Shown here one piece after another: positions 14,435 to 34,113 of a stretch of 64,000 bases of DNA. The notes beneath the pieces are model-generated. The model made no database searches, was not told where the DNA came from, and saw only the letters and a list, made by a program, of their open reading frames with translations. Numbering within the stretch: position 1 is the stretch's first letter; every line of letters begins with the position of its first letter. A program made the position numbers and the translations under genes. The stretch is from Xylophilus rhododendri (GTDB lineage Bacteria > Pseudomonadota > Gammaproteobacteria > Burkholderiales > Burkholderiaceae_C), in contig NZ_CP047650.1 in NCBI RefSeq assembly GCF_009906855.1, positions 1,488,001-1,552,000 on the forward strand, read 5' to 3'.

Positions 14435-14484
14435 ACAGTTCCCTCCGTCGAATTGAAATAGTGAAAATCGGCGCCGTGCCCGGC

Positions 14485-15642
14485 TCATTGATCGACCATG
14501 GAGCCATCGACATGCGCGCGCATGGCCACCGACAGCGACTTCCCGGGGAATCTTCCAGGGACATCCTCGGGAATGAAAACACCGAGCCCCGGCGCCTGCG
14601 GAATGGCCAGGAATCCATGCTCCGGTGCCGCCAGCCCTTCGACCACATTCGCGCCGCGCAGGCCGTCGCGGCCTTCATAATCGACGCTTTCGTACACATA
14701 CTCTTGGATCGCGAAATTGGGGATGGCCGCATCGAGTTGCAGGCAGGCCGCCAGATTGACCGGCGACAGCGGGTTATGGAAGACGACCTGCGCGTCGCAG
14801 GCCTCCGCCAGGGCCGCGATTTTCTTGCCGGCCGTGATGCCGCCGCACACGGAAATACAGGGCCGCACGAATTCGGCACCGCGCCGCGCCAGCAGCGTTT
14901 GAAACTGCTGGAGATTGGTGAACCGTTCTCCCGTGGCGATCGGCACCGGCATATGGTCCGCCACCCAGGCCATCGCATCCGGATTACCCGGCCGGATCGG
15001 ATCCTCGATATACATGGGCAGATATTCTCGGATCATGTGGCCGAAAGTGATCGCTTCGGCCGGCGACATGCGGTTGTGCAGTTCGATGCAGATATCCACC
15101 GAACTGCCCACGGCATGGCGTACCGCCGCGATATTCTGGGTGGCATCGCCGATTTTGTCCGCATGCGTCTTGAACCAGGGCTTTGCATTACCCTCTTCCA
15201 GCAGCGGATTCAGATAACCGAGCGCATTGAAACCCATGCCCTTGAGTATGCCGGCTCTTTCCAGCAGATGCTCCGGCGTCTTGCCCTTGCAATGGCTGTA
15301 GAGCCGCACCTTGTCGCGCACGGCGCCGCCCAGCATTTCATAAACAGGCACGCCATGGTGCTTGCCCTTGATATCCCACAGCGCCACATCGATCGCCGAA
15401 ATGGCGCCGCCGATCGCTGCGCCGCTGAATTGCTGGAAGCGGTACATCACATTCCAGTGGTGCTCGATTTGCCGCGGATCCTTGCCCACCAGATATTCCG
15501 CGAATTTCCGGATGGCTTCGGCACTGGCTTCGAGATGGCCCCATGCACCGGATTCTCCGAGTCCCACGATACCATCCGAGGTGGTTATTTTCGCGAACAG
15601 GAACTTGTCCACGAAAAGTGGCTCTACACTGGCAATCTTCAC
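14485..15642 (-). CDS. Enolase-superfamily (mandelate racemase/galactonate dehydratase-like) enzyme
   Basis: Sugar-acid dehydratase or racemase of the mandelate racemase group, abstracting a proton alpha to a carboxylate with a bound Mg2+. The N-terminal capping domain (ASVEPLFVDKFLFAKITTSDGIVGLGE) is followed by GGAISAIDVALWDIKGK and the barrel. Metal ligands appear in CIELHNRMSP, YIEDPIRPGN and ATGERFTN; the His in VVFHNPLSP is the likely C-terminal base. This pattern (ELHxR, EDP, GER, HNP) is closest to galactonate/rhamnonate dehydratases. GTG start with GAAGGGA upstream; 385 aa. First gene of the operon with a Bug receptor and the HAD-like protein; the LysR gene is divergent. Confidence 0.88.
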   Translation of the reverse strand: MKIASVEPLFVDKFLFAKITTSDGIVGLGESGAWGHLEASAEAIRKFAEYLVGKDPRQIEHHWNVMYRFQQFSGAAIGGAISAIDVALWDIKGKHHGVPVYEMLGGAVRDKVRLYSHCKGKTPEHLLERAGILKGMGFNALGYLNPLLEEGNAKPWFKTHADKIGDATQNIAAVRHAVGSSVDICIELHNRMSPAEAITFGHMIREYLPMYIEDPIRPGNPDAMAWVADHMPVPIATGERFTNLQQFQTLLARRGAEFVRPCISVCGGITAGKKIAALAEACDAQVVFHNPLSPVNLAACLQLDAAIPNFAIQEYVYESVDYEGRDGLRGANVVEGLAAPEHGFLAIPQAPGLGVFIPEDVPGRFPGKSLSVAMRAHVDGSMVDQ

Positions 15643-15713
15643 ATTTTCCCTTCGGAGTTTATCGGCGCATGCAGCGGTGTCGCGTCGCCATTCTCCAGGG
15701 ACGGCCATGCCAT

Positions 15714-15724
15714 GTGAAATTCAC
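15714..15724. promoter_or_regulatory. Palindrome GTGAA-A-TTCAC, candidate LysR operator
   Basis: A perfect 5-bp inverted repeat around one central base, placed in the 123-bp divergent region between the enolase-superfamily gene (start 15642) and the LysR gene (start 15766). Position and symmetry suit an operator shared by both promoters; no measured data. Confidence 0.4.
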
Positions 15725-15765
15725 GATCCGTATAGGGTATGCAAGCCTTCGTGGCGGGAAAGAAC

Positions 15766-16794
15766 ATGGAACTGAGCTGGCTGGAAGACCTGATCGCCCT
15801 GCATTCGAGCCGCAGTTTTTCGAAAGCCGCGGAAATCCGGCATGTGACCCAGCCCACGCTGAGCCGAAGAATCCAGAGCCTGGAGATCTGGCTGGGCGCA
15901 CCGCTCATCGACCGGCGGGTCTTTCCCATCGTGCTGACCGAGCAGGGCAAATCCTTCATCAAGGCGTCGGAGGACATCGTGCAGTCGCTGTACCGCGAGC
16001 GCGATATCTGCAGGGGCGTCACACGCCCGGTGCGGGGCACCATGTCCTTCGCCATGGTGCAGTCGATCGCCACGGACTTCTTTCCGGACTGGATCAAGCT
16101 CGCCGAATCGAAGATCGGCCCGCTCAAGCTCAGCGTGGCGTCACGCAGCCTGCATGACTGCGTGCAGGCCCTGATCGTGGACAGCTGCGACCTGATGTTG
16201 GCCTACGCGAGCAAGGGCTCGCCGCAGATCCTGGACGCATCGCGCTTCCAGACCCTCACGGTGCTGGAAGACCTGCTGGTACCCGTCTGCGCGGTGGACG
16301 AGCACGGCAGCCCCGCCTTCGCGCTGCCCGAGGTGCTGACGACGCCCATCCCCTACCTCGCCTACTCCTCCTACGCGTCCCTGTCCGGCGCGGTGAGTTC
16401 GATCATCGAGGCCCACGCCAGGCGCGAAATGCTGGACCAGTGCTACGAGTCCGACTTGGCCAGCGCCTTGAAATCCATGGCCCTGTCGGGCCGCGGCGTG
16501 GCCTGGCTGCCGCACTTTTCGGTGAAGGCCGAGATCGCGGACGGCCTGCTGGCGGTGGCGGGCAGCATGCGCTGGGCGGCGCCGATCCAGGTCAACGCCT
16601 ACCGGGCGATCGAGACACGCAGCCAGGACGAGGAAGCGCTGTGGGCCTGGATGCAGGCCCATCCACTGGGGCGCAACGCGATGCTCGACGGGATCACCGG
16701 CCCTGCGGGCGCCGCCAGCGCCGTCGATCCCCGGTCCTCGAATTTCCGCCGCGACTATCCCTCGATGAGCGGTCGCCGCACCCGCAGGCGCTGA
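15766..16794 (+). CDS. LysR-family regulator of the enolase-Bug-HAD operon
   Basis: LysR-type regulator of 342 aa with an N-terminal HTH (LEDLIALHSSRSFSKAAEIRHVTQPTLSRRIQSLE) and a standard effector domain. It is divergently transcribed from the enolase-superfamily/Bug/HAD operon, the classic arrangement for a pathway-specific activator sensing the substrate. The ATG at 15766 (MELSWLEDL) has GCGGGAAAGA just upstream and matches family starts; an ATG at 15739 would add nine residues. Its 3' end overlaps the convergent AlkB-like gene by 40 bp. Confidence 0.92.
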   Translation: MELSWLEDLIALHSSRSFSKAAEIRHVTQPTLSRRIQSLEIWLGAPLIDRRVFPIVLTEQGKSFIKASEDIVQSLYRERDICRGVTRPVRGTMSFAMVQSIATDFFPDWIKLAESKIGPLKLSVASRSLHDCVQALIVDSCDLMLAYASKGSPQILDASRFQTLTVLEDLLVPVCAVDEHGSPAFALPEVLTTPIPYLAYSSYASLSGAVSSIIEAHARREMLDQCYESDLASALKSMALSGRGVAWLPHFSVKAEIADGLLAVAGSMRWAAPIQVNAYRAIETRSQDEEALWAWMQAHPLGRNAMLDGITGPAGAASAVDPRSSNFRRDYPSMSGRRTRRR

Positions 16795-17420
16795 TCCGCC
16801 GTCCGGAAAGTCACCGACCAGCGCGGGACCAGCGGCGCGGATACGCTGAGCTGCCAGTCCATGCCGGCCTCACCCGAGATGCGGTAGACCGAGCGCGGCG
16901 CGACTTCGAGATGGAGGCTGGCCCTGCGCCCAGGCTTGCCGGCAGAACCGCCCATCGAAGAGGGCCGCAGCTGCAGCATCGCGGGCGCCCCCAGCGAGAC
17001 CTGGGCGCCCAGCTCGCCATCGGGCTCGTCGCCATGACGGTCCGAGGGCATGCCGGGCCGGTATTCGGCGACGACCGTCTCGACCAGCCGGTCCGGGCCG
17101 ATGCGAAGCCAGCCGGCGGCCCGGTGCCGCAAAGGTTCCAGCACTTCGGGCAAGGGCCCTGCAGAAGGCTGGCGATTGTCGTCGTTTTCCGTGCTGCCGC
17201 CGTAGCGGATGACCCGGCGGCCCGCACCCGCCGACCGGTGCTGCACTTCCACGAGCGGCAGAGTGCCCAGGACCGCCAGCCAGTGGCGCTCCTCCGCGGG
17301 CGTCAGGAAATCCGGCTGATAGACCATGCCCGGCGGAAGCACCGGCGGCGCCTGCGCGAAGCTGAAAAGGCCGGACTGGCGGGGATCCTGGAGTTCGGAC
17401 GAAGGACGGCGGGCAGGCAT
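16755..17420 (-). CDS. AlkB-like 2OG-Fe(II) oxygenase fold protein lacking the distal His
   Basis: Related to AlkB-type 2-oxoglutarate/Fe(II) dioxygenases that repair alkylated DNA or RNA or modify proteins. The fold landmarks are visible: FLTPAEERHWLAVL (38-51), VVAEYRPGM with the HxD pair H129 and D131, the VSLGAPAMLQLR strand, and the C-terminal arginines R200 and R206 of PRWSVTFR that bind 2-oxoglutarate. The second iron histidine, normally in W-x-H, is Leu191 (DWQLS), a one-base CAC to CTC change. The iron site is therefore incomplete and the protein may be inactive or use another ligand. 221 aa; the start at 17420 is chosen for length and gene spacing. Confidence 0.7.
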   Translation of the reverse strand: MPARRPSSELQDPRQSGLFSFAQAPPVLPPGMVYQPDFLTPAEERHWLAVLGTLPLVEVQHRSAGAGRRVIRYGGSTENDDNRQPSAGPLPEVLEPLRHRAAGWLRIGPDRLVETVVAEYRPGMPSDRHGDEPDGELGAQVSLGAPAMLQLRPSSMGGSAGKPGRRASLHLEVAPRSVYRISGEAGMDWQLSVSAPLVPRWSVTFRTADQRLRVRRPLIEG

Positions 17421-17463
17421 TGCCGCGAGATTACCTCGCGGCCGGCGAAGTCGACGGCGGTCT

Positions 17464-18018
17464 CTAGCGGATGAAACGCTCGATGTAGTTCTCCGGCAGG
17501 CCCAGCTGCCGGTAATGCCGGCGCGCGGCTTCGAGCTTGGTGAACACATCCTCGTAGCCCACTGCCACGCCCTGCGGGTCCACATAGGTGTAGCCGCCGG
17601 TCACATGGAACCAGGTGATCATCTCGGTGACGCCCTCGGGCACCACCAGGGTATGGGTCTCGCCGGCCGGCTCGTGGGCATAGGAGCCCTCTTCCGCGAT
17701 CCAGTCGTGTTCCAGGTACTGCCAGCGGCCCTTGAGCACCAGCGCATGCACCGGGCCGGAATGGCGGTGGCGCGACAGCACGCCGGCCTTTTGCACCCGC
17801 AGCAGGTTCACGTAGTAGCCGCCGCTGGTGCACAGCAGCAGCGGCTTGAAGGAGACGCTCCGGGTCACCGGCACCCACAGCTCGTCGTTCTCCAGCCAGC
17901 GGTCCAGCACGTTGAGGTGGACCAGGTCGGGCGACATGTAGGGCACCTGGGGCAGTGCGTAGGGAATGGCCAGTTCATCGGGCCTGGCGGCGGGGGCGGC
18001 GGCATGTGGGGTGTTCAT
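17464..18018 (-). CDS. Cupin protein, 2,4'-dihydroxyacetophenone dioxygenase family
   Basis: Single-domain cupin of 184 aa resembling the 2,4'-dihydroxyacetophenone dioxygenase (DAD) family, which cleaves an aryl ketone side chain at a non-haem iron. Cupin motif 1 is SRHRHSGPVHALVLKG with two His and the Glu replaced by neighbouring residues; later metal-site residues include the Glu-Thr-His of PAGETHTLVVP. Many DAD-like cupins have unknown substrates. Same strand as, and downstream of, the XRE-cupin regulator at 18643 (76 bp gap), suggesting joint control. Confidence 0.8.
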   Translation of the reverse strand: MNTPHAAAPAARPDELAIPYALPQVPYMSPDLVHLNVLDRWLENDELWVPVTRSVSFKPLLLCTSGGYYVNLLRVQKAGVLSRHRHSGPVHALVLKGRWQYLEHDWIAEEGSYAHEPAGETHTLVVPEGVTEMITWFHVTGGYTYVDPQGVAVGYEDVFTKLEAARRHYRQLGLPENYIERFIR

Positions 18019-18094
18019 GCCGGGCAGCTTAGGTTCGGGATGGCCGGATGCCCAGGCCCCGTGGCGATCAGGGGGTGTTCCGCGCTGGAACAGC

Positions 18095-18643
18095 CTAGTA
18101 GGTCGGCGGGGTCACCGCGCTGATGATCTCCGCCGTGCCGGGCCCGACATTGCGAAAACGGTGCGGCATCTGGCTGTCGAAGTAATAGCCCTGCCCCGGC
18201 CCCAGCACCCGGGTCTGGTCGCCCACGGTCACCTCGACCTGGCCGCTGAGGATGAAACCGGCCTCCTGCGATCGGTGCGAGAAGGCCTCGCCGGTGTCGG
18301 CGCCCACCGCATAGCTTTCCTTCAGCATGAGGATGTGGCGGTTGGGATGGTTCATGCCCAGCATGCGGTAGGAGATGGTGTCCTGGTCGCCGATCTCGAC
18401 CAGGTCTTCCTCGTCGTAGAAGGGCGAATAGGGCAGCGTCGTCTGCAGGCCGTCGAAGAAGCCGACCAGGGTGGTGCCCAGGGCGTCGAGCATGGCCGAG
18501 AGGGTGTCGACGCTGGGGCTGGTCTTGTCGCGCTCGACCAGGGAGATGGTGGCGTGCGAGATGCCCGAGCGCTGCGCCAGCTCGCGCACCGACAGCTTGC
18601 GCCGCATGCGCAACTGCTTGAGATGGATGCCGACTTGGGCCAT
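18095..18643 (-). CDS. XRE-family regulator with C-terminal cupin (PuuR-like)
   Basis: 182-aa regulator with an N-terminal HTH_3 domain (LKQLRMRRKLSVRELAQRSG, then ISHATISLVERDKTSPSVDTL) and a C-terminal cupin_2 sensor (about 110-175: HRSQEAGFILSGQVEVTVGDQ, GPGQGYYFDSQMPHRF). Proteins of this build, such as PuuR, repress amine or amino acid catabolic genes and sense a small ligand through the cupin. It follows the M81-peptidase gene by 62 bp on the same strand, so it may regulate the Bug-M81 cassette, the following cupin gene, or both. Confidence 0.9.
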   Translation of the reverse strand: MAQVGIHLKQLRMRRKLSVRELAQRSGISHATISLVERDKTSPSVDTLSAMLDALGTTLVGFFDGLQTTLPYSPFYDEEDLVEIGDQDTISYRMLGMNHPNRHILMLKESYAVGADTGEAFSHRSQEAGFILSGQVEVTVGDQTRVLGPGQGYYFDSQMPHRFRNVGPGTAEIISAVTPPTY

Positions 18644-18705
18644 GGTGTCCTCGCTGCCGATCAGCCGGCATTATGGGCTTGGGCCCCCTCGCGCCGGCCC
18701 GGCCT

Positions 18706-20211
18706 TCAGCCCCCGGGCAGCCGGCGCCTGCGCACCGCCGTCACCGGCTGGTAGGCGATTTTGTCCACCGGATAGAAGGGGCGGGCCACGGTGAAGGGCT
18801 GTTCGGCCGGGCGGTAGGCGGTCATGCCGACGGTGTCGCAGGTCATGCAGTCGCCGCTGTCCGCATAGTTCAGGGTGAAGTGGTAGCCGGAGCGTGCCAC
18901 GACCACCTGCTGCTCTGCGACCGGTATGCCCAGGGCTTCGTAGAAGCGGGGGTCGAGGTAGGTCAGCGGAAGCTCGGTCAGCGCGATCCGCACCTGGCCC
19001 AGCTGCACCACCGCGTAGGGGCCGGTCGCCACGGACACGCCACCCATGGCCGGGCCCTTGATCACCACGTCGACGTTCGAACCCCGGGCCAGCAGCCGGC
19101 AGGCGGCCGACACCGGCGGGGTTTCGGTGGAGTAACGGCCGCCGATGGACAGCTCCACCATGTCGCCGATCTCCGCATCCCTGCATCGCCGCACCGATGC
19201 CGCGTCGCGGATCGGCAGGGCGGCCCGGAGCGCGGGAAAGTCCGCCAGCAGCGTGTTCAGCACGAAGGTGCTGTCGCCCGGCCCGCCGGCCGCCACCCGG
19301 TCGCCCTGGTCGCCGATGACCACCGGGCGTGTGCGGCCCGGCTCGGCGGCGCGCGTCAGGCAGGTATGGATGTCGGGCAGCACGCCGACCAGCTCGTCGC
19401 GCGCGGCCCACAGGGCATCGGCGATCTCGTGGGCCGCGTCCCAGGCCGGCTCGGCCTGGCCGTTGCCGTAGGCGATCACCGTCTGGCCCATGTGCGCGAC
19501 GTCCAGGAACTGCTGGACGTTGAAGATGCTGATGTCGAACAGCCCGCTGGTCTCCACCAGCGCCCGGACCCGCGCGTGCAGGCCCATCAGCGGCTCCTCG
19601 TCGGTGCGGTCCTGGCCCAGGGTCAGCATGGGGAAATGCACCGACACGCAGACCGGCTCGAAGCGGCCCGCCAGCATGGCCAGCGCGCCGCGCATGGCGC
19701 GCTCGCCGGTCTCGGCCATGTCGGCATGCGGGTTGGTCTTGTAGCCGGTGAGGAAGTCGCAGGCCGCCAGGGTGTAGGGGGTGACATGGGCATGCAGGTC
19801 CAGGCCGGCGGTGATCGGCACCGTGGGGCCGACGATGTCGCGCAGGCTGCGGATCAGGTCGCCTTCGGGATCGTCGTGCGCGGTGGTGACCATGGCGCCG
19901 TGCAGCGCCAGCACGATGGCGTCGAAACCGCCGTGGCGGGCGGCGTCCAGCATCGCCGCCTTGAATTCCGCATACACCGCGTCATCGACGATGCCCGAGG
20001 GAAAGGCCCGGAACGAGGCCGGCACGATCACCGAGAAACCCGCCGCCTCGGCCGTGTCGATCACGCCGCCCAGCACCGAGCGGGTGCCGCGGTAGGCGTC
20101 GAGCGCCTCCTGCCCGAAGGCGATCTGGAACTGGTCGCGGCCGGTCGGGATGGGGTTGAAGCTGTGCGACTCCTGGTAGAGGGAGCCGCTGAGGATGGTC
20201 TTGTAGCTCAC
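18706..20211 (-). CDS. M81-family metallopeptidase (MlrC-like), left copy
   Basis: Zinc peptidase of the M81 family, named for MlrC, which degrades linearised microcystin peptides; most bacterial members have unknown substrates. The N-terminal domain (GSLYQESHSFNPIPTG) carries the conserved ExHxF segment; the metal-binding core is DLHAHVTPY and YKTNPHADMAETGERA (about 185-225); the C-terminal MlrC_C domain includes VVIGDQGDRVAAGGPGDST. 501 aa, normal for the family. GTG start with GAGG seven bases before it, nine bases after the Bug stop. Paralogue of the gene at 22526, in mirror orientation. Confidence 0.92.
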   Translation of the reverse strand: MSYKTILSGSLYQESHSFNPIPTGRDQFQIAFGQEALDAYRGTRSVLGGVIDTAEAAGFSVIVPASFRAFPSGIVDDAVYAEFKAAMLDAARHGGFDAIVLALHGAMVTTAHDDPEGDLIRSLRDIVGPTVPITAGLDLHAHVTPYTLAACDFLTGYKTNPHADMAETGERAMRGALAMLAGRFEPVCVSVHFPMLTLGQDRTDEEPLMGLHARVRALVETSGLFDISIFNVQQFLDVAHMGQTVIAYGNGQAEPAWDAAHEIADALWAARDELVGVLPDIHTCLTRAAEPGRTRPVVIGDQGDRVAAGGPGDSTFVLNTLLADFPALRAALPIRDAASVRRCRDAEIGDMVELSIGGRYSTETPPVSAACRLLARGSNVDVVIKGPAMGGVSVATGPYAVVQLGQVRIALTELPLTYLDPRFYEALGIPVAEQQVVVARSGYHFTLNYADSGDCMTCDTVGMTAYRPAEQPFTVARPFYPVDKIAYQPVTAVRRRRLPGG

Positions 20212-20220
20212 GTGGCGGCC

Positions 20221-21195
20221 TCAATCGAGCTTGACGTTCACCGCCTTGAGCAGGGCGGCCTGGCTGGTGCGGTCGTCCTCCATGGTCTTGCCGAAATCCT
20301 GCGGCGTGCCGCCGGCCGGGAACACCGAGAGTTTCTCGATCGCCTCGCGGATGCGCGGCTCGGCCAGCGCATCGTTGGCCGCCTTGTTCAACCGCGCGAT
20401 CACCTCGGGCGGCGTGCTGGCCGGCGCCACGATGCCGAACCACGAGAACAGGCCCAGCTCGGGCAGGCCCTGCTCGGCATAGGTCGGCACATCGGGCAGG
20501 CTGGGCACGCGCCGGTTGCCGGACACCGCCAGGGCCTTGAGCTTGCCGCCCTGGATGTAGGGCAGCGAGGACGGCAGGTCGTCGCTCAGCACATCGACCT
20601 GGCCGGCCAGCACATCCTGGATGACGAAGCTGATGCCCTTGTAGGGCACGTGCAGCAGCTGGGTGCCGGTGCGCAACTGGAACATCTCCATCTTGAGATG
20701 GCCGCCGCCGCCGGCACCGGACGAGCCGAAGGAATACCTGCCCGGATTGGCCTTGGCCAGGGCGATGAATTCGGTGAGGTTCTTCGCCGGCACCTGCATG
20801 CCGGCGGACCACACCGTGGGGCAGTTGGCGATGTTGACGACGGGCAGCAGGTCCTTGCGCACGTCGTAGTTGAGCTTGCGGGTCAGCGGCAGCACCGAGT
20901 GCGATGTCACGGTGGCGATGCCGAGCGTGTAGCCGTCCGGCGCCGCCCGCACCACCGCCTCGGAGCCGATGGCGCCGGCCGCGCCGGCCCGGTTGTCCAC
21001 CACGATCGACTGGCCCAGGTAGCGGGCCATGCCGTCGGCCATGATGCGGGCCAGGATGTCGGTGGTGCCGCCCGGCGCGAAGGGCACGATGATCTTGATC
21101 GCATGGTTGGGAAACGCCTCGGCCGCGAGCGCCGGTGCGGCGGCCACGGCCAGCGCGGCCAGGAGGAGAAGGGATCGGCGGTCGGTGGCGGGCAT
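20221..21195 (-). CDS. Bug/TctC-family periplasmic solute-binding protein, left cassette
   Basis: Periplasmic receptor of 324 aa co-transcribed with the left M81 peptidase. Signal peptide (DRRSLLLLAALAVAAAPALAA), FPNHAIKIIVPFAPGGTTDILAR, and the ligand loop DNRAGAAGAIGSEAV. It shares more with the right-cassette Bug protein (PFAPGGTTD, GAIGS, ATVTxH, DNLPSSLP/DDLPSSLP) than with the other Bug proteins here, supporting a common origin. No membrane transporter subunits are nearby. Confidence 0.93.
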   Translation of the reverse strand: MPATDRRSLLLLAALAVAAAPALAAEAFPNHAIKIIVPFAPGGTTDILARIMADGMARYLGQSIVVDNRAGAAGAIGSEAVVRAAPDGYTLGIATVTSHSVLPLTRKLNYDVRKDLLPVVNIANCPTVWSAGMQVPAKNLTEFIALAKANPGRYSFGSSGAGGGGHLKMEMFQLRTGTQLLHVPYKGISFVIQDVLAGQVDVLSDDLPSSLPYIQGGKLKALAVSGNRRVPSLPDVPTYAEQGLPELGLFSWFGIVAPASTPPEVIARLNKAANDALAEPRIREAIEKLSVFPAGGTPQDFGKTMEDDRTSQAALLKAVNVKLD

Positions 21196-21557
21196 GGGAT
21201 CTCCGGTCGTGGCGGGTTGCGGGGCGGCCTCACTGTGCGTTCGTTTGCCGGGTGGCGAAACAGGGCCGGCACCGGGTGGTGAATATGTTTACCAAAGCCG
21301 CGCGCAGCCAAGGCCGTGAGCCCTCCACATCGGTGCGCAAACGCGGGCCGCCGCGCCCCGGCACAGGGCAGCGGCGCGCCCCCGTCCCGACGTCACGGCG
21401 ATGCACCAACGTGCGGCCGCCCCGCGCATCGGCTTGCCGGCCAGTCCAGTTTTGTGGACGTCCCTCCCGCGCCCCCTGTTCGCCCCCGGCGCGAGTTCCT
21501 AGACTGCGCCGGCCGCAGCGAAACCTTTGCTGCCCCGAACCACCTCCCGACCTCGCC
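21196..21557. promoter_or_regulatory. 362-bp divergent control region of the two Bug-M81 cassettes
   Basis: Non-coding stretch between two outward-facing Bug genes. It must hold both promoters. The clearest element is the palindrome at 21444-21459. An AT-rich patch lies near 21280-21296 (GAATATGTTTACC) and could be part of the leftward promoter. No convincing open gene was seen; longer frames here are extensions of the right Bug gene in GC-rich DNA. Confidence 0.5.
21444..21459. promoter_or_regulatory. Palindrome GTCCA-N6-TGGAC, candidate operator
   Basis: Perfect 5-bp inverted repeat separated by GTTTTG, about 100 bp before the right Bug start and 250 bp before the left one. Symmetry and location suggest a dimeric regulator site; candidates are the XRE-cupin protein (18095-18643) or the LysR protein (25381-26292), each encoded at one end of the mirrored block. 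Confidence 0.4.
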
Positions 21558-22529
21558 ATGAAAAAACTCCTCCTGGGCCTGGCCCTCGCCGCCGCCACCG
21601 CCGCATCGCCGGCATGGGCGCAGACCGACGCCTGGCCCGCCCGTCCGATCAAGCTGGTGGTGCCCTTCGCGCCCGGCGGCACCACCGACCTAATCGCCCG
21701 CGCCATGGCCGACCGGCTGACCCGCGAACTCGGCCAGCCGGTGATCGTGGACAACAAGGCCGGCGCCTCCGGCGCCATCGGCTCCGACTTCGTCGCCAAG
21801 GCCTTGCCCGACGGCTACACCATCGGCATGGCCACGGTCACCACGCATGCGGTGAATCCCGCCGTGTTCCCCAAGCTCAGCTACAACGTGCTGCGCGACC
21901 TGGCGCCGGTCACCCAGCTGGTGTCGGTGCCCAATGTGATGACGGTCTCGCCCAACCTGGGCGTGAGCACCATGGCCCAGTTCCTGGCCCGCGAGAAGGA
22001 GCAATCCGGCAAGCTGACCTACGGCTCGCCCGGCCCCGGCTCCGAAGCCAACCTGATGGGCGAGCTGTTCAACCAGTCCGCCAGAACGCACATCCTGCAT
22101 GTGCCCTACCGCGGCGCCGGCCCGGCCCTGCAGGACGCCATGGCCGGCCAGATCGACGCGGTGTTCGACAACCTGCCCTCCTCCCTGCCCTTCATCCAGA
22201 CCGACAAGCTGCGTGCCCTGGCCGTGGCCGCGCCCAAACGCATCCCGCAGCTGCCGGCCGTGCCCACCTTCGAGGAAGTGGGCCTGAAGCCGGTCAACGA
22301 CAGCTCCTGGTTCGGCCTGGTGGCGCCAGCGAAGACACCCGCCGCCATCGTCGACCGGCTGCAGGCCGCGTCGGCCAGGGTGCTGGCCACGCCGGACATG
22401 GTCGCCACGATGGAGAAGTTCGCCGGCACCGGCGTGGGCAGCAGGCCCGAGGCCTTCCGGGCGCTGCTGGAGAGCGAGCTGAAGAAGTTCAAGACCCTGG
22501 CCGACGCCGGCAACATCCGACTCGAATGA
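21558..22529 (+). CDS. Bug/TctC-family periplasmic solute-binding protein, right cassette
   Basis: Periplasmic receptor of 323 aa. Signal peptide MKKLLLGLALAAATAA (cleavage near AWA), then WPARPIKLVVPFAPGGTTDLIAR and DNKAGASGAIGSD. Its stop overlaps the start of the right M81 peptidase by ATGA, so the receptor and peptidase are made together. The pairing suggests the receptor captures the same compound, or a product, that the peptidase acts on. The ATG at 21558 gives an exact signal peptide; frames upstream are not coding. Confidence 0.93.
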   Translation: MKKLLLGLALAAATAASPAWAQTDAWPARPIKLVVPFAPGGTTDLIARAMADRLTRELGQPVIVDNKAGASGAIGSDFVAKALPDGYTIGMATVTTHAVNPAVFPKLSYNVLRDLAPVTQLVSVPNVMTVSPNLGVSTMAQFLAREKEQSGKLTYGSPGPGSEANLMGELFNQSARTHILHVPYRGAGPALQDAMAGQIDAVFDNLPSSLPFIQTDKLRALAVAAPKRIPQLPAVPTFEEVGLKPVNDSSWFGLVAPAKTPAAIVDRLQAASARVLATPDMVATMEKFAGTGVGSRPEAFRALLESELKKFKTLADAGNIRLE

Positions 22530-24100
22530 GCGACCTTCCCCACCAGACCGCCACCGGCCGCGCGCCGCGTGTGCTGGTCGGCCAGATCTTCCAGGAGGCC
22601 CACGGCTTCACGCCGCTGCGCACGCCGCTGGAGGCCTTCGCCATCGAGCGTGGCGAAGAGGTCATCGCGCAGAACCTGCAGGCCGATTCGGTGCTGGGCG
22701 GCATCCTGCGCACCGGGGTCGCCGCCGGCTGGGAGCTGGTGCCCTCCATCGCCGCGCGTGCCAGCCCGGGCGGCCGGGTGACCGACGCCGCCTACGACCA
22801 CATCCTGTCCGCGCTGCTGCAAGCCGCGCGCTCCGGTCCGCTGGACGCCATCGCGCTGTGCCTGCACGGCTGCATCCAGACCGAGAGCCTGGACAGCGCC
22901 GAGGCCGACCTGCTGCATCGCCTGCGCGAGATCGTGGGGCCACGGGTGCCCATCGTGGCCGGCTTCGACCTGCACGGCCATGCCGGCGGCGGCATGCTCG
23001 AATACCTGGACTTCGCCTCCGCCTACAAGACCAATCCCCACGGCGATGCCGCCGCCACCGGCGAGCGGGTGGCGACGGTGCTGGCCGGCATGCTGAAGGG
23101 CGAGCTGCGGCCCGTGGGCATGCAGGTGCTGGTGCCCATGCTGACCGGCGGCAACGACGAGACCGGCAGCGGTCCGCTGCTGCGGCTGCACACCCTGGCG
23201 CGCGAACGGGTGGCTGCGGACCCGCGGCTGCTCGACGCCTCCATCTTCAACGTCAACCCCTTCATCGACGGCGCGGGTGTGGGGCAGACGCTGCTGGTCT
23301 ATGCCACCGGTGCCGAAGGCCGTGACAGCGCGGCGGCCCTGGCCGAGACGCTGGCAGAAGGCATCTGGAGCGCCCGCGCGGAATTCACCCACGCCCTGCC
23401 CACGCTGGAAGAGGTGCTGGCACAGGCCCGGGGCCGCGTCGTGCTGGGAGACTTCGGCGACCGCGTGCTGGCCGGTGCACCCGGCGACAGCCTGTTCCTC
23501 GCCAGGCAGGTGCTGGCGCGGCACCCGGCCTTGCGTGTGGTGGCGCCGGTCACCGATCCCGCTGCCCTGATGCTCTGCCAGCAGGCCGGCGCCGGAGCGC
23601 AGGTCACGCTCCCGGTGGGCTGGAGCATCACGCGAGCCGAGGCACCGCTGCAGCTCGAAGGCACCGTGCTGGCCACCGGCGTGGGTGTCTACCGCAACCG
23701 CGGCGCCTTCATGCGCGGCGCCACGCTGCAGGTCGGCGAATACGCGGTGCTGCAGGCCGGCCGCGCCACCCTGCTCATCACCCGCAATCCGCTGATGAGC
23801 CAGGACCCGGGATGCTTCCTGGACCTGGGCATCGATCTGGATGGCGCGGATGTGATCGTCGTGAAGTCCGGCTACCACTTCAAGCTGGCCTTCGGCGACT
23901 GGGGCGATTGCGTGTGCATCGCCACCCCCGGGCTGACGGTGTTCGACCCCACCACGCTGGACCTGCAGAAGGCCCGTCCGCTCTATCCGCTGGACGCGCC
24001 GGAGTTCCATGCCCGGGCCGTCCCGGCCCGATCAACGCAGTTCGATTTCACGACAGGCCGACAGGACTTTGGGAATGCTTATGAGCAATCTGGTGGGTGA
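22526..24100 (+). CDS. M81-family metallopeptidase (MlrC-like), right copy
   Basis: Second M81 peptidase, 524 aa. The N-terminal domain has GQIFQEAHGFTPLRTP; metal-binding core FDLHGHAGGG and YKTNPHGDAAATGERV; C-terminal domain VVLGDFGDRVLAGAPGDS and VVKSGYHFKLAFGDWGDC, closely parallel to the left copy's VARSGYHFTLNYADSGDC. Coupled by ATGA to the Bug gene before it; its last 20 bases overlap the aminotransferase start. The C-terminus is some 20 residues longer than in the left copy. Confidence 0.92.
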   Translation: MSDLPHQTATGRAPRVLVGQIFQEAHGFTPLRTPLEAFAIERGEEVIAQNLQADSVLGGILRTGVAAGWELVPSIAARASPGGRVTDAAYDHILSALLQAARSGPLDAIALCLHGCIQTESLDSAEADLLHRLREIVGPRVPIVAGFDLHGHAGGGMLEYLDFASAYKTNPHGDAAATGERVATVLAGMLKGELRPVGMQVLVPMLTGGNDETGSGPLLRLHTLARERVAADPRLLDASIFNVNPFIDGAGVGQTLLVYATGAEGRDSAAALAETLAEGIWSARAEFTHALPTLEEVLAQARGRVVLGDFGDRVLAGAPGDSLFLARQVLARHPALRVVAPVTDPAALMLCQQAGAGAQVTLPVGWSITRAEAPLQLEGTVLATGVGVYRNRGAFMRGATLQVGEYAVLQAGRATLLITRNPLMSQDPGCFLDLGIDLDGADVIVVKSGYHFKLAFGDWGDCVCIATPGLTVFDPTTLDLQKARPLYPLDAPEFHARAVPARSTQFDFTTGRQDFGNAYEQSGG

Positions 24101-25380: not shown

Positions 25381-26292
25381 ATGGACTTCTACACCCAGCT
25401 GCGCATTTTCCTGTGGGCCATCGAGGCGGGCAATTTCTCGTCGGCCGCACGTGAACACGACCTGGCGCCCTCCACCGTCAGCAAGGCCATCGCGGCGCTG
25501 GAGGCCAGGCTGGGCGTCAAGCTGTTCCAGCGCGGGCCGCAGGCCCATCGCGTGACCGCCGAGGGCGCCGCCTACCAGCCCAGCGCCCGGGCGGTGATCG
25601 ACGCGATGGCGGTGGCCGAGTCCGCCGCCGGCACCTTGGCGCAGCGGGTGGCCGGCGTGCTGCGCATCCACGCCCTGCCCACCTTCGCCAAACACCAGCT
25701 GCTGCGCTGGCTGCCCGAGTTCCTGGCCCGCTATCCGGAGCTGCGGGTGGAGCTGTCGGTGGGTGCGCAGTACGTGGACCTGTTCGACCAAGGCGTGGAC
25801 ATCGCGATCCACAGCGGCGTGCTGCCCGATTCGCCGCATCGGGCGCATCGCATTGGCGCCTCGGACTGGCTGGTCTGCGCCGCGCCCTCCTATCTGGCAC
25901 GGCACGGCGAACCCGCCGTGCCGGAGGACCTGCTGCGCCACACCTGCTTCAACTTCAGCTTCGCGAGCCCATGGAACAGCTGGTCGTTCCGGCGCGGCGA
26001 AGGTGTGGTGGTGGTGCCGGTCGAATGCCAGGCTTCCTTCACGCAGGGCGACATGCTGCGCGAGCTGGCGCTGGACAGCGCCGGCATCGTGCGGCTGGCG
26101 GCCTTCCATATCGGCGAGGACCTCGCGGCCGGGCGGTTGGTGGCCCTGCTGGGCGACTTCCACCTGCCGATGCCGGAGCCGATCTACCTGGTGCATGCGC
26201 ACCGCGAGCAGCACAGTCCGCGGGTGCGGGCCTTCGTGGACTTCCTGAAGGCGCGGGTGGATACGCAGGCCTGGGTGGTCAGGCAGGACTGA
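25381..26292 (+). CDS. LysR-family regulator at the end of the M81 operon
   Basis: LysR-type regulator of 303 aa. HTH in LRIFLWAIEAGNFSSAAREHDLAPSTVSKAIAALEARLG; effector domain resembles the CrgA/DsdC-like group (VDIAIHSGVLPDSPHRAHRIGASDWLVCAAPSYL). It starts 16 bp after the aminotransferase stop, so it is probably co-transcribed, an arrangement less usual than divergent LysR genes and possibly autoregulatory for the right cassette. Confidence 0.93.
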   Translation: MDFYTQLRIFLWAIEAGNFSSAAREHDLAPSTVSKAIAALEARLGVKLFQRGPQAHRVTAEGAAYQPSARAVIDAMAVAESAAGTLAQRVAGVLRIHALPTFAKHQLLRWLPEFLARYPELRVELSVGAQYVDLFDQGVDIAIHSGVLPDSPHRAHRIGASDWLVCAAPSYLARHGEPAVPEDLLRHTCFNFSFASPWNSWSFRRGEGVVVVPVECQASFTQGDMLRELALDSAGIVRLAAFHIGEDLAAGRLVALLGDFHLPMPEPIYLVHAHREQHSPRVRAFVDFLKARVDTQAWVVRQD

Positions 26293-26397
26293 TCCGCATC
26301 GAATCGAGGCCACGGCAGCACTTGCTGCCTCTGCTTGGCCACATGCTTCCCGATCGCCCTGGCGGCGGTCCCGCCGACGTTGCGCAAGGGCAAAATG

Positions 26398-26420
26398 GCG
26401 CCCAACGTGCATGCGGGCGC
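26398..26420. other. Hairpin upstream of the ATPase/HNH pair
   Basis: Stem GCGCCC/GGGCGC with an 11-base loop containing the palindrome GCATGC, 56 bases before the ATPase start. A second stem (CGGCGG/CCGCCG) lies at 26363-26376. They may act as a rho-independent-like end for the LysR gene (no T-run follows) or as leader structure of the defence operon. Confidence 0.3.
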
Positions 26421-26476
26421 TTGAACCACGCAAGGATTCCAGTGAAGTGTGAAGATCATTGAGGACACCCAGGAAA

Positions 26477-27883
26477 ATGAACACCCCTCCATTCGGGCTC
26501 CTCGCGCCGGTCCAGAAGGTCCACATCGAGAACTTTCGCGGCGTCCGAGACCTCTCCGTCGAATTGCATGAACATGTGACCGTGTTCTTCGGCATCAATG
26601 CCGCTGGCAAGACCACGCTGCTGGACGCGCTCGCCATCGGCCTGGGCGCCTATGTCACCCGTGTCCCGAAGGCCAAGGGGCTCACTTTCCAGAAGCACGG
26701 CGACATCCGCATTCCCTGGAAGAGCCACCCGCAGTGGAATGAGAAACGTGGCGTGGAGCGCGCTTACGCGCGAGTCACCGTCACCTGCGCAAACCGGCTC
26801 GAATGGGACGTCCACAAGCTGCGCTGGGCAGCGGACCGCGCCGGCGGCCCCTTCATCGGCCTGAAGCAGCTTCACGAAAAGTTCGACCCGCTTCTGAGAG
26901 AGGCCCTGGAAGCCGGCCAGGACGACGCCGGCACGGCGAGCGCGTTACCGCTGGTGGCCGCCTACGGCACGGAACGCGCGGTGGTAGCCCTGCCGCTGCG
27001 CAAGCGCGACTTCAAGAACGACTTCCATCGCCTGAACGCCCTCGACGAATCGCTCAAGACCAGCACCCGCTTCAAGAGCGTGTTCGAGTGGTTCGTGGTG
27101 GCCGAGGACGAGGAGCGCCGGGAGCGGGAACGCCGCAAGGACTTCGACTATTGCCATCCACCACTCGAATGGGTGCGCGGTGCCGTGATGCGCGCCGGCC
27201 TGCGCTGCCAAAGGCCGCGCATAGAGACCAGGCCCAATCTGCGCATGATGGTCGATCTGACGCACCCGGACGGCTCGCTGGAAGAGATCGACATCGCCTC
27301 GCTATCCGATGGCTACCGGACGCATTTCGCGCTGGTCGTCGACATTGCCCGGCGCATGGTGCAACTCAATCCCAGCGACAACCTGGCAGCGCCTGACCGA
27401 GGCACCAACACCGAGGCGCTCATCCTGATCGATGAAATCGACCTCCACCTCGATCCGACATGGCAGGCCCGTGTGGTCAAGGGCCTGCGCGATGCGTTTC
27501 CGCGCGCCCAGTGGGTGCTGACCACGCACTCCGAACAGGTCATCGGATCGGTGCCGGCCGCGTCGGTGCGCAAGCTGGTGGCCGGCGACGGGGAAGTGCT
27601 GGTCGAACCCGTTCCGTTTGCGGAAGGAGCGACCAGCGAACGCATCCTCATCGAACTGATGGGCGCGAAGGAACGCGCAGGCGATGCGACCGATGGCCCC
27701 AACACCATGCGCCTGAAAACGTACACGGACCTCGTGAGAAAGGGGCAAGGCGCGGCGCAGGCCGCCCAGGCCCTGCGTGAAGAACTCGAAACAGTCCTCC
27801 CGGGCGATGAGCGGCTGCACCAGGCGGACCTGGAAATGCAGAAACGCGAGCTCCTCCGCAAGATCACGGGGAACGCCCCGTGA
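26477..27883 (+). CDS. AAA/ABC-type ATPase, PtuA-like component of a Septu-type defence pair
   Basis: Predicted cytoplasmic ATPase of 468 aa related to the SMC/RecF-like AAA_21 group. Features in order: N-terminal strand VHIENFRGVRDLSVEL, Walker A FGINAAGKTT (G39-T47), charged central region with EDEERRERERRKDF (about 215-228), signature LSDGYRTH (276-283), Walker B ALILIDEID (314-322) and the His switch TTHSE (349-353). This layout matches PtuA, the ATPase of the Septu anti-phage system and of some retron effectors. It overlaps the HNH gene by GTGA, so the two products are made together. No reverse transcriptase is near, so a retron is unlikely. The ATG at 26477 has AGGA very close; GAGGA lies 11 bases upstream. 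Confidence 0.85.
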   Translation: MNTPPFGLLAPVQKVHIENFRGVRDLSVELHEHVTVFFGINAAGKTTLLDALAIGLGAYVTRVPKAKGLTFQKHGDIRIPWKSHPQWNEKRGVERAYARVTVTCANRLEWDVHKLRWAADRAGGPFIGLKQLHEKFDPLLREALEAGQDDAGTASALPLVAAYGTERAVVALPLRKRDFKNDFHRLNALDESLKTSTRFKSVFEWFVVAEDEERRERERRKDFDYCHPPLEWVRGAVMRAGLRCQRPRIETRPNLRMMVDLTHPDGSLEEIDIASLSDGYRTHFALVVDIARRMVQLNPSDNLAAPDRGTNTEALILIDEIDLHLDPTWQARVVKGLRDAFPRAQWVLTTHSEQVIGSVPAASVRKLVAGDGEVLVEPVPFAEGATSERILIELMGAKERAGDATDGPNTMRLKTYTDLVRKGQGAAQAAQALREELETVLPGDERLHQADLEMQKRELLRKITGNAP

Positions 27884-28689
27884 AGCATGTGCGCGCGCTC
27901 GCGGCGCAGCCTCCCCTGCTTCGGGAATACAACACAAATCACCCGGACGAAGCGCTGCGCCCGGCCGATGAAGCCGCCGCCGCCTGGGAAGCATTCAAGG
28001 CGGACCGGGCCGCCCATGCACAACTGCTCGATCACCTGACCCGGGCACAACAGGGCCTGTGCATCTATTGCGAGCAGCGGCTGGTCAACGCCGCCGGGAC
28101 GCTTGTGCCGATGGACTGCCAGGTGGAACACGTGTTGCCGAAGTCGGGCGCTGCCGGACGGGTACTGGATTGGCAGAACCTGGCGCTGGCCTGCTGCGGC
28201 GGAACCTGGCCACACCACGACGACCCATCCCGCCGATACCAGTCGAAGCAGAACACATCGTGCGGCCAGACGAAGGATGCGAGTGTGTTGCCCTGCGACC
28301 CGCGAAACCTGCCGCTGCTCGATCCTTTGGTGCAGGTGGCTATGGACGGCACGCTGGAGGTGGATGCAGCCTGCTGCACCGCGGCAGCGGTGCAGCAGGC
28401 CGATGTTCTACGGGCGATCGAGCTTCTGAACCTTGACTGCGAGCGGCTGCGCAAGACCCGGCAGGACATCGGGGACGACGTGCGGACAGCATTTGTCTCC
28501 TTGCTCCTGCAAATCCAAGCCATCCCACTGACGCCGCTGGAGCAGCGTCATGCGATCGAGCTGTTCGTCGCAGGCAGGCTTCAGCCCGACGTTCGGGGCA
28601 ACTTGCTGCGTTTCTGGTCGGCGGAGCGCAGTGGGATCGGTGCTCCGGCTGAATCCTGGCTTGAGACAAGCCAGGCGCTATTTGTATGA
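27880..28689 (+). CDS. HNH endonuclease, PtuB-like (TIGR02646-type) component of a Septu-type pair
   Basis: Predicted nuclease of 269 aa. It has the zinc-binding and catalytic pattern of PtuB/TIGR02646 proteins: CIYCE (C61, C64), the HNH core VEHVLPKS (E83, H84), WQNLALACCGG (N100, C105, C106) and CDPRN (139-143). In Septu, PtuB is the nuclease held or activated by PtuA and cleaves nucleic acid on infection. The GTG start overlaps the ATPase TGA. Only about 230 residues are usual; here a C-terminal helical region (about 165-269) adds length. Remaining doubt is about which Septu or retron-effector subtype it belongs to. Confidence 0.85.
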   Translation: MKHVRALAAQPPLLREYNTNHPDEALRPADEAAAAWEAFKADRAAHAQLLDHLTRAQQGLCIYCEQRLVNAAGTLVPMDCQVEHVLPKSGAAGRVLDWQNLALACCGGTWPHHDDPSRRYQSKQNTSCGQTKDASVLPCDPRNLPLLDPLVQVAMDGTLEVDAACCTAAAVQQADVLRAIELLNLDCERLRKTRQDIGDDVRTAFVSLLLQIQAIPLTPLEQRHAIELFVAGRLQPDVRGNLLRFWSAERSGIGAPAESWLETSQALFV

Positions 28690-28690
28690 A

Positions 28691-28709
28691 CGGCGATGGG
28701 CTTCCGCCG
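28691..28709. terminator. Short hairpin between convergent genes
   Basis: CGGCG/CGCCG stem with a nine-base loop in the 28-bp gap between the HNH gene and the convergent acetyltransferase gene. It could stop transcription from both sides but lacks a T-run. Confidence 0.3.
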
Positions 28710-28717
28710 CAAACGCC

Positions 28718-29284
28718 TCAACCCGCGCGATCCGGACCCGCGACCGGCCGCAGGATCCTGGCCGGATTGCCGGCCACCACCACCGCCGCCGGCACGTCCC
28801 GCGTGACGACCGCCCCGGCGCCGATCACGCTGCCCGGGCCGATGCTCACGCCCGGCAGCACCTGTACCCCCGCGCCGATCCAGACGTCGTCGCCGATCGT
28901 GATCGGATAGGCGTACTCCAGGCCCTGGTTGCGGCGCGCGGCGTCCAGCGGATGGCCGGAGGTGTGCAACCCCACATTCGGCGCGATGAAGACGTTGTGG
29001 CCGATGCGCACCCGGGCGGCATCGAGGATGACCAGGTTGACGTTGGCGTAGAAGTGGTCGCCGATCTCGATGTTGAAACCGTAGTCACAGAAAAAGGGGC
29101 CATCGAAGACCGGCCCCTCGCCCAGGCGGCCCAGCAGCGAACGCAGGATCTCGATGCGGGGCGCGCGCAGGTGCGCGGCCGTCTGGTTGAAGGCAAAGAG
29201 TTTGGCCTTGGCCGCATCCCTGTGCGCCAGCAACTCGGGATCGTGGTTGGCGTCGTAGAGCAGGCCGGCGGCCGCTTTTTCCAT
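28718..29284 (-). CDS. Maltose/galactoside O-acetyltransferase-like hexapeptide protein
   Basis: Acetyl-CoA-dependent O-acetyltransferase of the left-handed beta-helix family (Maa, LacA, NodL). N-terminal Mac domain (EKAAAGLLYDANHDPELLAHRDAAKAKLFAFN) then hexapeptide repeats (IEIGDHFYANVNLVILDAARVRIG, ITIGDDVWIGAGVQVLPGVSIGPGSVIGAGAVV). The catalytic His is in LHTSGHPLD. The start at 29284 gives the standard family N-terminus; a TTG at 29317 would add 11 residues. Acceptor sugar unknown. It converges on the Septu-like pair. Confidence 0.92.
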   Translation of the reverse strand: MEKAAAGLLYDANHDPELLAHRDAAKAKLFAFNQTAAHLRAPRIEILRSLLGRLGEGPVFDGPFFCDYGFNIEIGDHFYANVNLVILDAARVRIGHNVFIAPNVGLHTSGHPLDAARRNQGLEYAYPITIGDDVWIGAGVQVLPGVSIGPGSVIGAGAVVTRDVPAAVVVAGNPARILRPVAGPDRAG

Positions 29285-29887: not shown

Positions 29888-30798
29888 ATGGATTTTCACG
29901 GCATAGACCTCAACCTGCTGGTGGCCTTCGATGCACTGATGAACGAGCGCAACGTGACCCGCGCCGCGGCCCGGGTCGGCGTGAGCCAGCCGGCGATGAG
30001 CGCCGCGCTTTCGCGCCTGCGGCTGCTGCTGGCCGACCCCTGTTCCTGCGCGGCGCCGGCGGGCTGCTGCCGACCCAGCGTGCGCGGGATCTCGCCGAAC
30101 CCCTGTCCCAGGCGCTGGCGCAGATCGAGGCCACGCTGGTGAAGCCGACCGGGTTCGTGCCGGCCCAGGCCGCGCTGACCTTCAACCTGGGCCTGCAGGA
30201 CTACCCGACCTTCGTGCTGCTGCCCGCGCTCCTGCAGGCCTTGGGTGAACAGGCGCCGAAGGTGCTGCTGAACGTGCGCGCCTTCAACGACCGCGACCAT
30301 GCGGTCGACCTGCTGGATGCCGGCGCCATCGATGCCGCCATCGGCGTGGCGCCCACGCAGACGGACTCGCGGATTTCCAGCCTGCCCCTGCTGCATGACG
30401 AGTTCGTCACCATCGTCGCGCGCCGCAACCCTGCCGCCAGTCGCGGCATGACGATGAAGAACTACCTGTCGCTGTCGCATGTGCTGGTCTCGCCGGAGGG
30501 AGACCGCCACGGCATCGTCGACCAGGCGCTGGCCCGGCAAGGCAAGACACGCAGGCTGGGCCTGACCCTGCCGCAGATGTTCGCCGTGCCCGCCGTGGTG
30601 GCGCGCACCGACATGACGGCCACGGTGCTGAAGCGGTTCGCCTCGGCGGCGCAGGAGGCGGCCGATCTCGTCCTGTTTCCGCCGCCGCTGGCCTTGCCGG
30701 AGATGACATTCCATCTGATCTGGCACCGGCGGGTGGACAACAGCGTGGCGCAGGCCTGGTTGAGGGACCTGATCGGGGCTACCGCCGCATCGCTGTGA
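29888..30798 (+). pseudogene. LysR-family regulator, frameshifted by one missing base
   Basis: Intact LysR gene apart from one break. The starting frame gives [18 protein letters not shown] and the HTH ([24 protein letters not shown]), then leaves the family at LLADP near 30040. The adjoining frame resumes with [16 protein letters not shown] and runs to the end of the effector domain (VPAVVARTDMTATVLKRFA). A C4 run (GACCCCTG, about 30037-30040) needs one more C to read LLADPLFLRG. Restored length about 303 aa, NodD/PcpR-like group. Divergent from the SnoaL-like gene. Confidence 0.82.
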
Positions 30799-32006: not shown

Positions 32007-32288
32007 TCAGCGATCCGCCAGCATCCAGTCTTCCGCCCGCTCGAACATGCCCTGCTCTCCCAGCTGCCGCAGCGCCACATCGGCCACCCAGCCGACGCGC
32101 TCCAGCGCATGGCGCATCAGCAGGATGCGGTCTTCGCGGTCGTCTTCTTCCTGGTTGTCGGCGGTGGCCGTCCGGGGACGCGACAGGACGATCGCGTTGG
32201 TGGCCAGGGTGCTGACTTCACGCAGCAAGGCGCGGGTCTGGACGGTGTCGGTGTGCTCTGGTTGCGACTCCGGGTTCTCTGTCTTCAT
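32007..32288 (-). CDS. Small acidic hypothetical protein
   Basis: 93-aa protein with no recognised domain. Begins MKTENPESQPEHTDTVQTRALL with an excellent AGGAGG ribosome site; the middle is rich in charged residues (ADNQEEDDREDRI) and the C-terminal half looks like an amphipathic helix (RHALERVGWVADVALRQLGEQ). Similar short proteins occur in Comamonadaceae without assigned role. Its 5' side holds the large inverted repeat at 32364-32523. Confidence 0.6.
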   Translation of the reverse strand: MKTENPESQPEHTDTVQTRALLREVSTLATNAIVLSRPRTATADNQEEDDREDRILLMRHALERVGWVADVALRQLGEQGMFERAEDWMLADR

Positions 32289-32363
32289 GCTTGCCTCCTG
32301 ATCGATGGCTCCACAAAGGAACTCCGCCGACCGCGCTTCAACACATGAAGGTGGCGGCGGCCC

Positions 32364-32523
32364 GAACAGGTTGGCGTACCGGCAGTTTCCCCGCGGAGAA
32401 CCCGGCAGGGCGTGAGCCCTCCCACTCGAGCCGCCATAAACGAATCGAATGAAAGCCGCAGGGTTGCGGTTGCTGGGTCTGCGGCTTTCGCCGCAGGGAA
32501 ACTGCCAGGACGCCAATCCTGTC
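32364..32523. repeat. Nested inverted-repeat element in a 329-bp gap
   Basis: Outer arms TTGGCGTACCGGCAGTTTCC... at 32371-32396 and its near-complement at 32491-32516 match at 23 of 26 positions, and with a one-base bulge the match continues out to about 32364 and 32523. Inside, GAAAGCCGCAG (32451-32461) pairs perfectly with CTGCGGCTTTC (32479-32489); the latter can instead pair with GCCGCAG at 32490-32496. A GCGC-T7-GCGC motif follows at about 32525-32540. It could be a small mobile repeat (REP/MITE-like) or a structured leader of the 93-aa gene. The rest of 32289-32617 shows no gene. Confidence 0.55.
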
Positions 32524-32617: not shown

Positions 32618-33976
32618 TCAGTCGATCAAGCCGATCTGGATATAGCCCTGCGTCGCCGTGTTCGTGCGTGCACCCACGACCGCGCCGATCTTCGCGCCCT
32701 GGGTCACGAAGAACTTGTTGGCCGGGATCTCGCGCGAGGTTCCGCCGCGCATGCCCAGCGGGCCGATGCTGGCGAGCGTATTCAGGTCCAGGTTCACCGC
32801 ATAGGCGGTGCCGGTGGTGTCCACGCCGGTCGATGCCAGGCTGGTCGAAGTGACGTCGGCCTTGCCCCAGGCGCCCAGCGTGTCGGCGCCGCGGGCGGTG
32901 ACGTTGGCGAAGGTGGAGATGTCCTGCGGGCCGATGCGGAAGACCCGGGTGGGGCCGTCCGGCACCACGGCGCCGGCGCCGAAGTACACGTTCTGTCCGC
33001 CGATCACGGCGATGCGGAAGTTGCCGATGTCGGTGGCGTCGGCGTTGTTCACGATGTGCCAGCTGCCGGCCGTGGTGTTGGGCGTCACCGTGTAGGTGTT
33101 GAAGCTGCTGCAGCTGGCCATGGCGGTCACGGCGACGCTGTTGCAGGTCTCGAAGATGGTGCCGGCGCCACGCACCCGCACCTGGCGAATGTTGGAGTCG
33201 CGGCCGGTGGCGGTGATGTCGATGCCCAGGCGGTTGTAGACGCCGTCGAGCTGCGCCGCGGTGGTGACCAGCGCGCGCGATGCCACGAAGGCCGTCACCG
33301 CATAACGCACCGGCGAGGCGAAGGCGACCGCGAAGGGGAACGAACCGACGATGTTGTTGCCATCCGCCGCCACCCGCAGGCGCGCGGTGTTGGTGGTGTT
33401 GGGGTTGAGCGGGCTCGTGATGTCCCAGGTGCCGGCCTCGCTGGCATTGGCCGAGATCGTGGCGCTGGCGGCCACGTTGTTCTCGTCGGTCATGACCAGC
33501 GACTTCGTGTCGAAATTGATGGCCAGTTTCTGGTTGCTGCCGTTGGTGGCGAACACGCTGTAGCTGCCGTTGCGGCTGTCGCCCGCGCCCACCTTCAGCA
33601 CCACGGCCTTGGTGTTGCCAGAGCCGTTGACCGAGGTGGCGGTGACGGTATAGGTGACGGCGCTGGTGGTGCCGTTGACGAGCTGGCCGGACCAGAGCTG
33701 GGTCGTGGTGCTGGCCTTGGCGACCGTGATGGCGCTGCTGTCGCTGGCGCTGGTGCTCCAGGTGCTGGCCTGGTCGGTGCCGATGGAGACCGAGTCGCCG
33801 GGTGCCACCGCCACCTCGCCCGAAGCGCTGGGCGTGACGGCCGCGCCGTTGACCTGCAGGCTGACGCTGATCGGCGCATAGACGGTGCCGCCGTTGCCTC
33901 CTCCCCCGCCACAACCTGCCATGAAGAAAGCCAGCGCCAATCCGCTGGTACCCAGGAACCTGCTCACCGAAACCAT
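32618..33976 (-). CDS. Putative lipoprotein with poly-Gly linker, unknown function
   Basis: 452-aa surface or periplasmic lipoprotein. The signal peptide ends in a lipobox followed by a run of Gly (AGCGGGGGNGG), a style common in Burkholderiales. The rest is Ser/Thr/Ala/Asn-rich and beta-structured: an Ig-like first part (VSLQVNGAAVTPSASGEVAV, STWSTSASDSS) and a repetitive second part (residues about 130-450) with no known domain. Start at ATG 33976 gives a correct lipoprotein signal; an upstream start at 34081 would add 35 basic residues. Downstream of the histidine kinase on the same strand. Confidence 0.75.
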   Translation of the reverse strand: MVSVSRFLGTSGLALAFFMAGCGGGGGNGGTVYAPISVSLQVNGAAVTPSASGEVAVAPGDSVSIGTDQASTWSTSASDSSAITVAKASTTTQLWSGQLVNGTTSAVTYTVTATSVNGSGNTKAVVLKVGAGDSRNGSYSVFATNGSNQKLAINFDTKSLVMTDENNVAASATISANASEAGTWDITSPLNPNTTNTARLRVAADGNNIVGSFPFAVAFASPVRYAVTAFVASRALVTTAAQLDGVYNRLGIDITATGRDSNIRQVRVRGAGTIFETCNSVAVTAMASCSSFNTYTVTPNTTAGSWHIVNNADATDIGNFRIAVIGGQNVYFGAGAVVPDGPTRVFRIGPQDISTFANVTARGADTLGAWGKADVTSTSLASTGVDTTGTAYAVNLDLNTLASIGPLGMRGGTSREIPANKFFVTQGAKIGAVVGARTNTATQGYIQIGLID

Positions 33977-34113
33977 GTTTTGCTGTCCGTGTTGTTGTCG
34001 ATACGGCGCCGTCTTTTTGCGGAGCCGCGAAATCGTAACACCGCACTTACACAGAAGATGCCGTGCTTTACGAACACGCAACCATGGCCGCGCGGGTGTC
34101 GGCCTATGCCCGC

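Follow-up and report, generated by a model that had tools for sequence, protein, structure and literature searches.

Organization and setting of the gene pair

We analysed a 64,000-nucleotide stretch of the Xylophilus rhododendri genome (the window) and found an ATPase gene followed by an HNH nuclease gene on its forward strand, with a putative terminator at the end of the second gene:

26477..27883, + strand: ptuA-like ATPase gene, 468 aa; RecF/SMC-type ABC ATPase with AAA_15, AAA_21 and AAA_23
27880..28689, + strand: ptuB-like HNH nuclease gene, 269 aa; GTG start, 4-nt overlap with ptuA
28655..28675, + strand: putative terminator stem-loop inside the 3′ end of ptuB, from a consensus scan only

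Both frames are open, and the two genes overlap through the GTGA at 27880-27883, so that the coordinates, strand and overlap given in the original prediction were all recovered. The GC contents of the genes (65.0% and 64.7%) are lower than that of the window (68.7%), a weak hint that the pair was imported. The consensus scan returned three terminator-like sites against a mean of 2.1 in shuffled sequences, which is not significant, and repeats flanking the pair were chance-like. No sigma-70-like promoter was found by scanning positions 26250-28760, where shuffled sequences yield only 0.1, and this was counted against reading the pair as a Septu anti-phage system.

Upstream of the pair lie genes for a TctC receptor, an M81 metallopeptidase, a class III aminotransferase and a LysR regulator, and downstream lie genes for a hexapeptide acetyltransferase, SnoaL-like proteins, a LysR gene in two frames and a DJ-1/PfpI protein. 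The examined neighbours are thus metabolic or regulatory, and ten neighbouring ORFs gave no PADLOC match at 1e-3, which agrees with the earlier description of the pair as isolated among metabolic genes. The pair stands without a visible defence island among the neighbours examined, and this was also counted against the Septu reading. ARAGORN found no tRNA in the window. To look for an empty site that would point to a recent insertion, the two flanks were compared as DNA with seven genomes of the genus, including its own, and the six congeners showed only scattered matches of less than 280 bases (40 candidates scored per genome).

Other features of the surroundings were observed in passing. At 29888-30798 (+), a LysR-type regulator has its HTH part (29888-30139) and its substrate-binding part (30040-30795) in different frames, which points to either a disrupted gene or an error in the sequence. 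The region 13460-24097 carries, in about 11 kb, three receptors of the TctC type and two M81 metallopeptidases, including two receptor and M81 sets that stand back to back, each on its own strand. No Pfam family was matched at 1e-3 by the 487-aa ORF at 32618-34081 (-), the start of which resembles that of a lipoprotein.

Profile models place the two proteins with PtuA1 and PtuB1

Both proteins were searched against PADLOC models, as the original prediction of a PtuA/PtuB pair had proposed. We found that the top model for the ATPase was PtuA1 (PDLC00311; 5.2e-91, 303.9 bits, residues 13-460 of 468), and that the top model for the HNH protein was PtuB1 (PDLC00349; 1e-49, 167.9 bits, residues 1-264 of 269). 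These scores exclude chance matches. Pfam identified AAA_15, AAA_21 and AAA_23 in the ATPase, while the Pfam HNH match of the second protein was borderline, at 21.4 bits and exactly at the cut-off. The predicted TIGR02646 assignment of the HNH protein was borne out, with 66.3 bits against an NCBIfam cut-off of 52.15. In PHROGs, the ATPase matched an unnamed family (1.7e-38) and the HNH protein matched only weak HNH families.

Among solved structures compared by sequence, the nearest to the ATPase was a chain named PtuA (8ee4; 3.9e-31, residues 12-402). The nearest to the HNH protein was the retron Ec83 HNH chain (5e-6), with a weaker match to the PtuB of 8ee7 (E 0.0057, residues 26-105). AlphaFold single-sequence models of the two proteins had mean pLDDT values of 40.1 and 35.8, too poor to judge the fold.

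Conserved motifs of the ATPase and the HNH protein

We then aligned 14 ATPase/HNH pairs, comprising the window pair and 13 pairs from 12 other genomes, with the relatives' proteins begun by script at the first Met within 80 residues. The alignment leaves aside G171, where a stop interrupts the ATPase match; G436, G365 and G142, where the ATPase gave no match; one HNH match in G263, the third there; additional ATPase matches in G014, G043 and G263; and 11 of the 25 genomes matching the PtuB1 model, the ATPase search having covered the others. In all 14 pairs, which were chosen as matches on one contig, the HNH open frame starts no later than the base that follows the ATPase stop.

The ATPase carries Walker A (GINAAGKT, 39-46), the signature (LSDGYR, 276-281), Walker B (LILIDE, 315-320) and the switch (TTHS, 349-352), which is the SMC/AAA_21 order that had been claimed for it. 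Of the motif columns counted, thirteen in the ATPase (N41, G44, K45, S277, G279, D319, E320, L325, P327, W329, Q330, H351 and S352) are identical in 14/14 pairs. At position 326, within the LHP element, the window ATPase has Asp and the other 13 of the 14 have His; this is a real, lineage-specific change, and it was counted against the Septu reading.

The HNH protein carries C61-x-x-C64, E83-H84 and N100. Among the motif columns counted, C61, H84, N100 and L185 are identical in all 14 pairs, and E83 matches in 12, the remaining two having Asp. The predicted CxxC, EH and N elements were therefore present, while the "CDPRN" part of the predicted pattern was not a feature of the family: C139, D140, R142 and N143 match in 1/14 each, and only P141 is shared more widely (11/14). 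Conservation instead marks C105 and C128 as the third and fourth cysteines; they match in 11 and 12 of the 14 pairs, respectively, with C64 also matching in 11. Judging from this cysteine pattern, C61, C64, C105 and C128 form a probable metal site.

The solved Septu proteins (PtuA in 8ee4, 8ee7 and 8eea; PtuB in 8ee7 and 8eea), which we take to be the E. coli "inflammasome-like oligomer" Septu structures, resemble the window pair in combining an ATPase with an HNH protein and in their motif order. They differ in that the HNH match is only the weak one given above and the solved PtuB reads CCYSE where the window HNH protein reads CIYCE. Compared by description, Septu EcB88 is likewise made of PtuA and PtuB, and the window pair has the types of residue on which that system depends (Walker A and B, and H and N of the HNH motif).

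The pair probably stands alone rather than serving a retron

The effectors of type I-A retrons, PtuA and PtuB of the Ec78/Eco7 and Ec83/Eco4 kinds, form a homologous pair, and we considered whether the window genes are the effector half of such a retron, with the RT and msr-msd RNA located at another site or lost. The retron I-A models do match strongly. In PADLOC, the retron I-A ATPase model gave 211.3 bits with the window ATPase, ranking after five PtuA1 models, and the retron HNH_I-A model was second best for the HNH protein at 82.3 bits, with only one PtuB1 model above it. Moreover, NF041760 (PtuA, retron Ec78 equivalog) matched the ATPase at E 5.5e-59, and the Ec83 HNH chain is, as described above, the nearest solved match of the HNH protein. 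The HNH protein taken alone would thus give no clean separation from retron effectors, which goes against the Septu reading. However, the top PtuA1 and PtuB1 models lead the retron I-A models by about 93 and 86 bits, respectively, and both NCBIfam retron equivalogs stay far below their cut-offs (NF041760, 200.4 bits of 500; NF041761, PtuB of retron Ec78, 69.4 bits of 150).

The original prediction had noted no reverse transcriptase nearby, and we found that this extends to the whole genome: RVT_1 had no match across its 5,873,400 bases (98.49% complete), while the same search gave matches in 3/14 control genomes. The lack of a detected RT in the genome makes a retron unlikely. Of 16 other genomes in which the ATPase or the HNH protein had a match, 7 contained some RT, and an RT adjoins 1 of the 13 other aligned pairs, that of G318 (pair at C6:108831-110956, RT at C6:111070-111699, as contig and position), indicating that the search does reveal a retron arrangement where one exists. 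A caveat is that two of the relatives come from incomplete genomes, G014 (65% complete) and G053 (86% complete, with its pair on a contig of 4 kb). With no RT found genome-wide and the retron models scoring lower, a retron effector was disfavoured and is very improbable. Altogether, the profile ranking, the TIGR02646 match and the lack of RVT_1 in the genome support the Septu interpretation, and the pair is very probably a Septu anti-phage system that stands alone and belongs to the PtuA1/PtuB1 kind, presumably Septu "type I".

Distribution and divergence of the pair

We further studied how the pair is distributed. The HNH protein matched 5/100 genomes including its own and none of the six congeners, and the PtuB1 model matched 25/399 genomes of the order, its own included. 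The best relative of the ATPase was in G258 (36% identity, 2.3e-66), the sole one of 16 other genomes to pass E 1e-50, and none of 368 other genomes of a class sample passed this threshold in a search that scored no more than four candidates in each. These counts show that the pair is patchy and divergent. A scan of genome contigs with the HNH protein found no relative, and a plasmid search returned 32 records, all below 60% identity, with at least 80% coverage of the ATPase in four of them.

The distribution also bears on whether the ATPase and HNH genes have been repurposed or are decaying, with a role in repair or housekeeping. The metabolic genes around the isolated pair and the membership of the ATPase in a wider RecF/Rad50-like group would fit such a role, but both frames are open with their catalytic residues intact, and the patchy distribution across the order and the congeners is a better fit to defence than to housekeeping. 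We consider a repurposed or decaying pair very unlikely.

The original prediction had suggested a divergent subtype from a charged central insert in the ATPase and an unusually long PtuB. These two arguments appear weak, since both features recur in relatives. The charged DEERRERERRKDFDY stretch of the window ATPase recurs as DAERRERETRRDFDY in G258. The top PtuB model already spans 260 positions, and the HNH open frames of the relatives span 200-286 residues before start trimming, compared with 292 for the window. The sequence divergence and D326 are both real. It is unlikely, though conceivable, that the pair represents a sequence-divergent Septu lineage, with Asp for the conserved LHP His of the ATPase and a full four-cysteine PtuB, that has a different trigger or a different nucleic-acid target than characterised Septu.

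A proposed mode of action

As a probable stand-alone Septu system, the pair may be expected to act as its characterised relatives do. Walker and H-N-H mutants are reported to abolish immunity by Septu EcB88, and in the same account EcB88 cuts tRNA-Tyr in the variable loop upon T6 infection (PMC13096335). The PtuAB of retron Eco7 depletes tRNA-Tyr, while that of Eco4 (Ec83) showed no tRNA loss in the experiments described there (PMC11555353). According to a 2026 review, Septu forms a PtuA-PtuB complex of 6:2 stoichiometry by which phage genomes are degraded, and Ec83 PtuAB degrades ssDNA (PMC12948488). Taken together, this Septu and retron PtuAB literature makes ATPase-controlled HNH cleavage of nucleic acid upon infection well founded by homology as a general scheme for the window pair.

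Under this scheme, the ABC-type ATPase PtuA, whose ATP site is complete, would oligomerise and would hold and control PtuB, the HNH nuclease with the probable four-cysteine metal site. Infection would activate the complex, and PtuB would then cut nucleic acid, either tRNA, as Septu EcB88 does on tRNA-Tyr, or phage DNA. This cleavage would stop phage growth, possibly at the expense of the cell. We infer complex formation, metal binding, trigger, substrate and defence from the relatives, and the substrate is not transferable to the window pair because the Eco7 and Eco4/Ec83 PtuAB differ in their target. Given that related PtuAB pairs differ in substrate, a distant pair such as this one could help to map the residues that set it. 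Otherwise the pair is an ordinary one, by which the catalogue gains a divergent stand-alone Septu pair.

A C4 RNA elsewhere in the window

Downstream of the gene pair, the window also carries a C4 antisense RNA (RF01695) at 32350-32441 (-), with 57.3 bits. With 150 candidates scored per genome, 11 C4 matches above the cut-off were found in this genome, compared with 0, 0, 1, 0, 0 and 1 in the six congeners. The C4 is followed by a 91-aa ORF at 32010-32282 (-), which had nine matches in the genome including itself and none in the congeners. The window copy had no PHROGs match, and against Pfam seven of the nine copies gave no match at E 1, the other two matching only below the cut-off. One copy lies on an 18.8-kb second contig. 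By-hand comparison showed that all nine copies lie on the same strand as a C4 match and 67-174 nt past it, so that 9 of the 11 C4 matches have one. The C4 RNA and the small paralogous ORF are a dispersed family in this genome.
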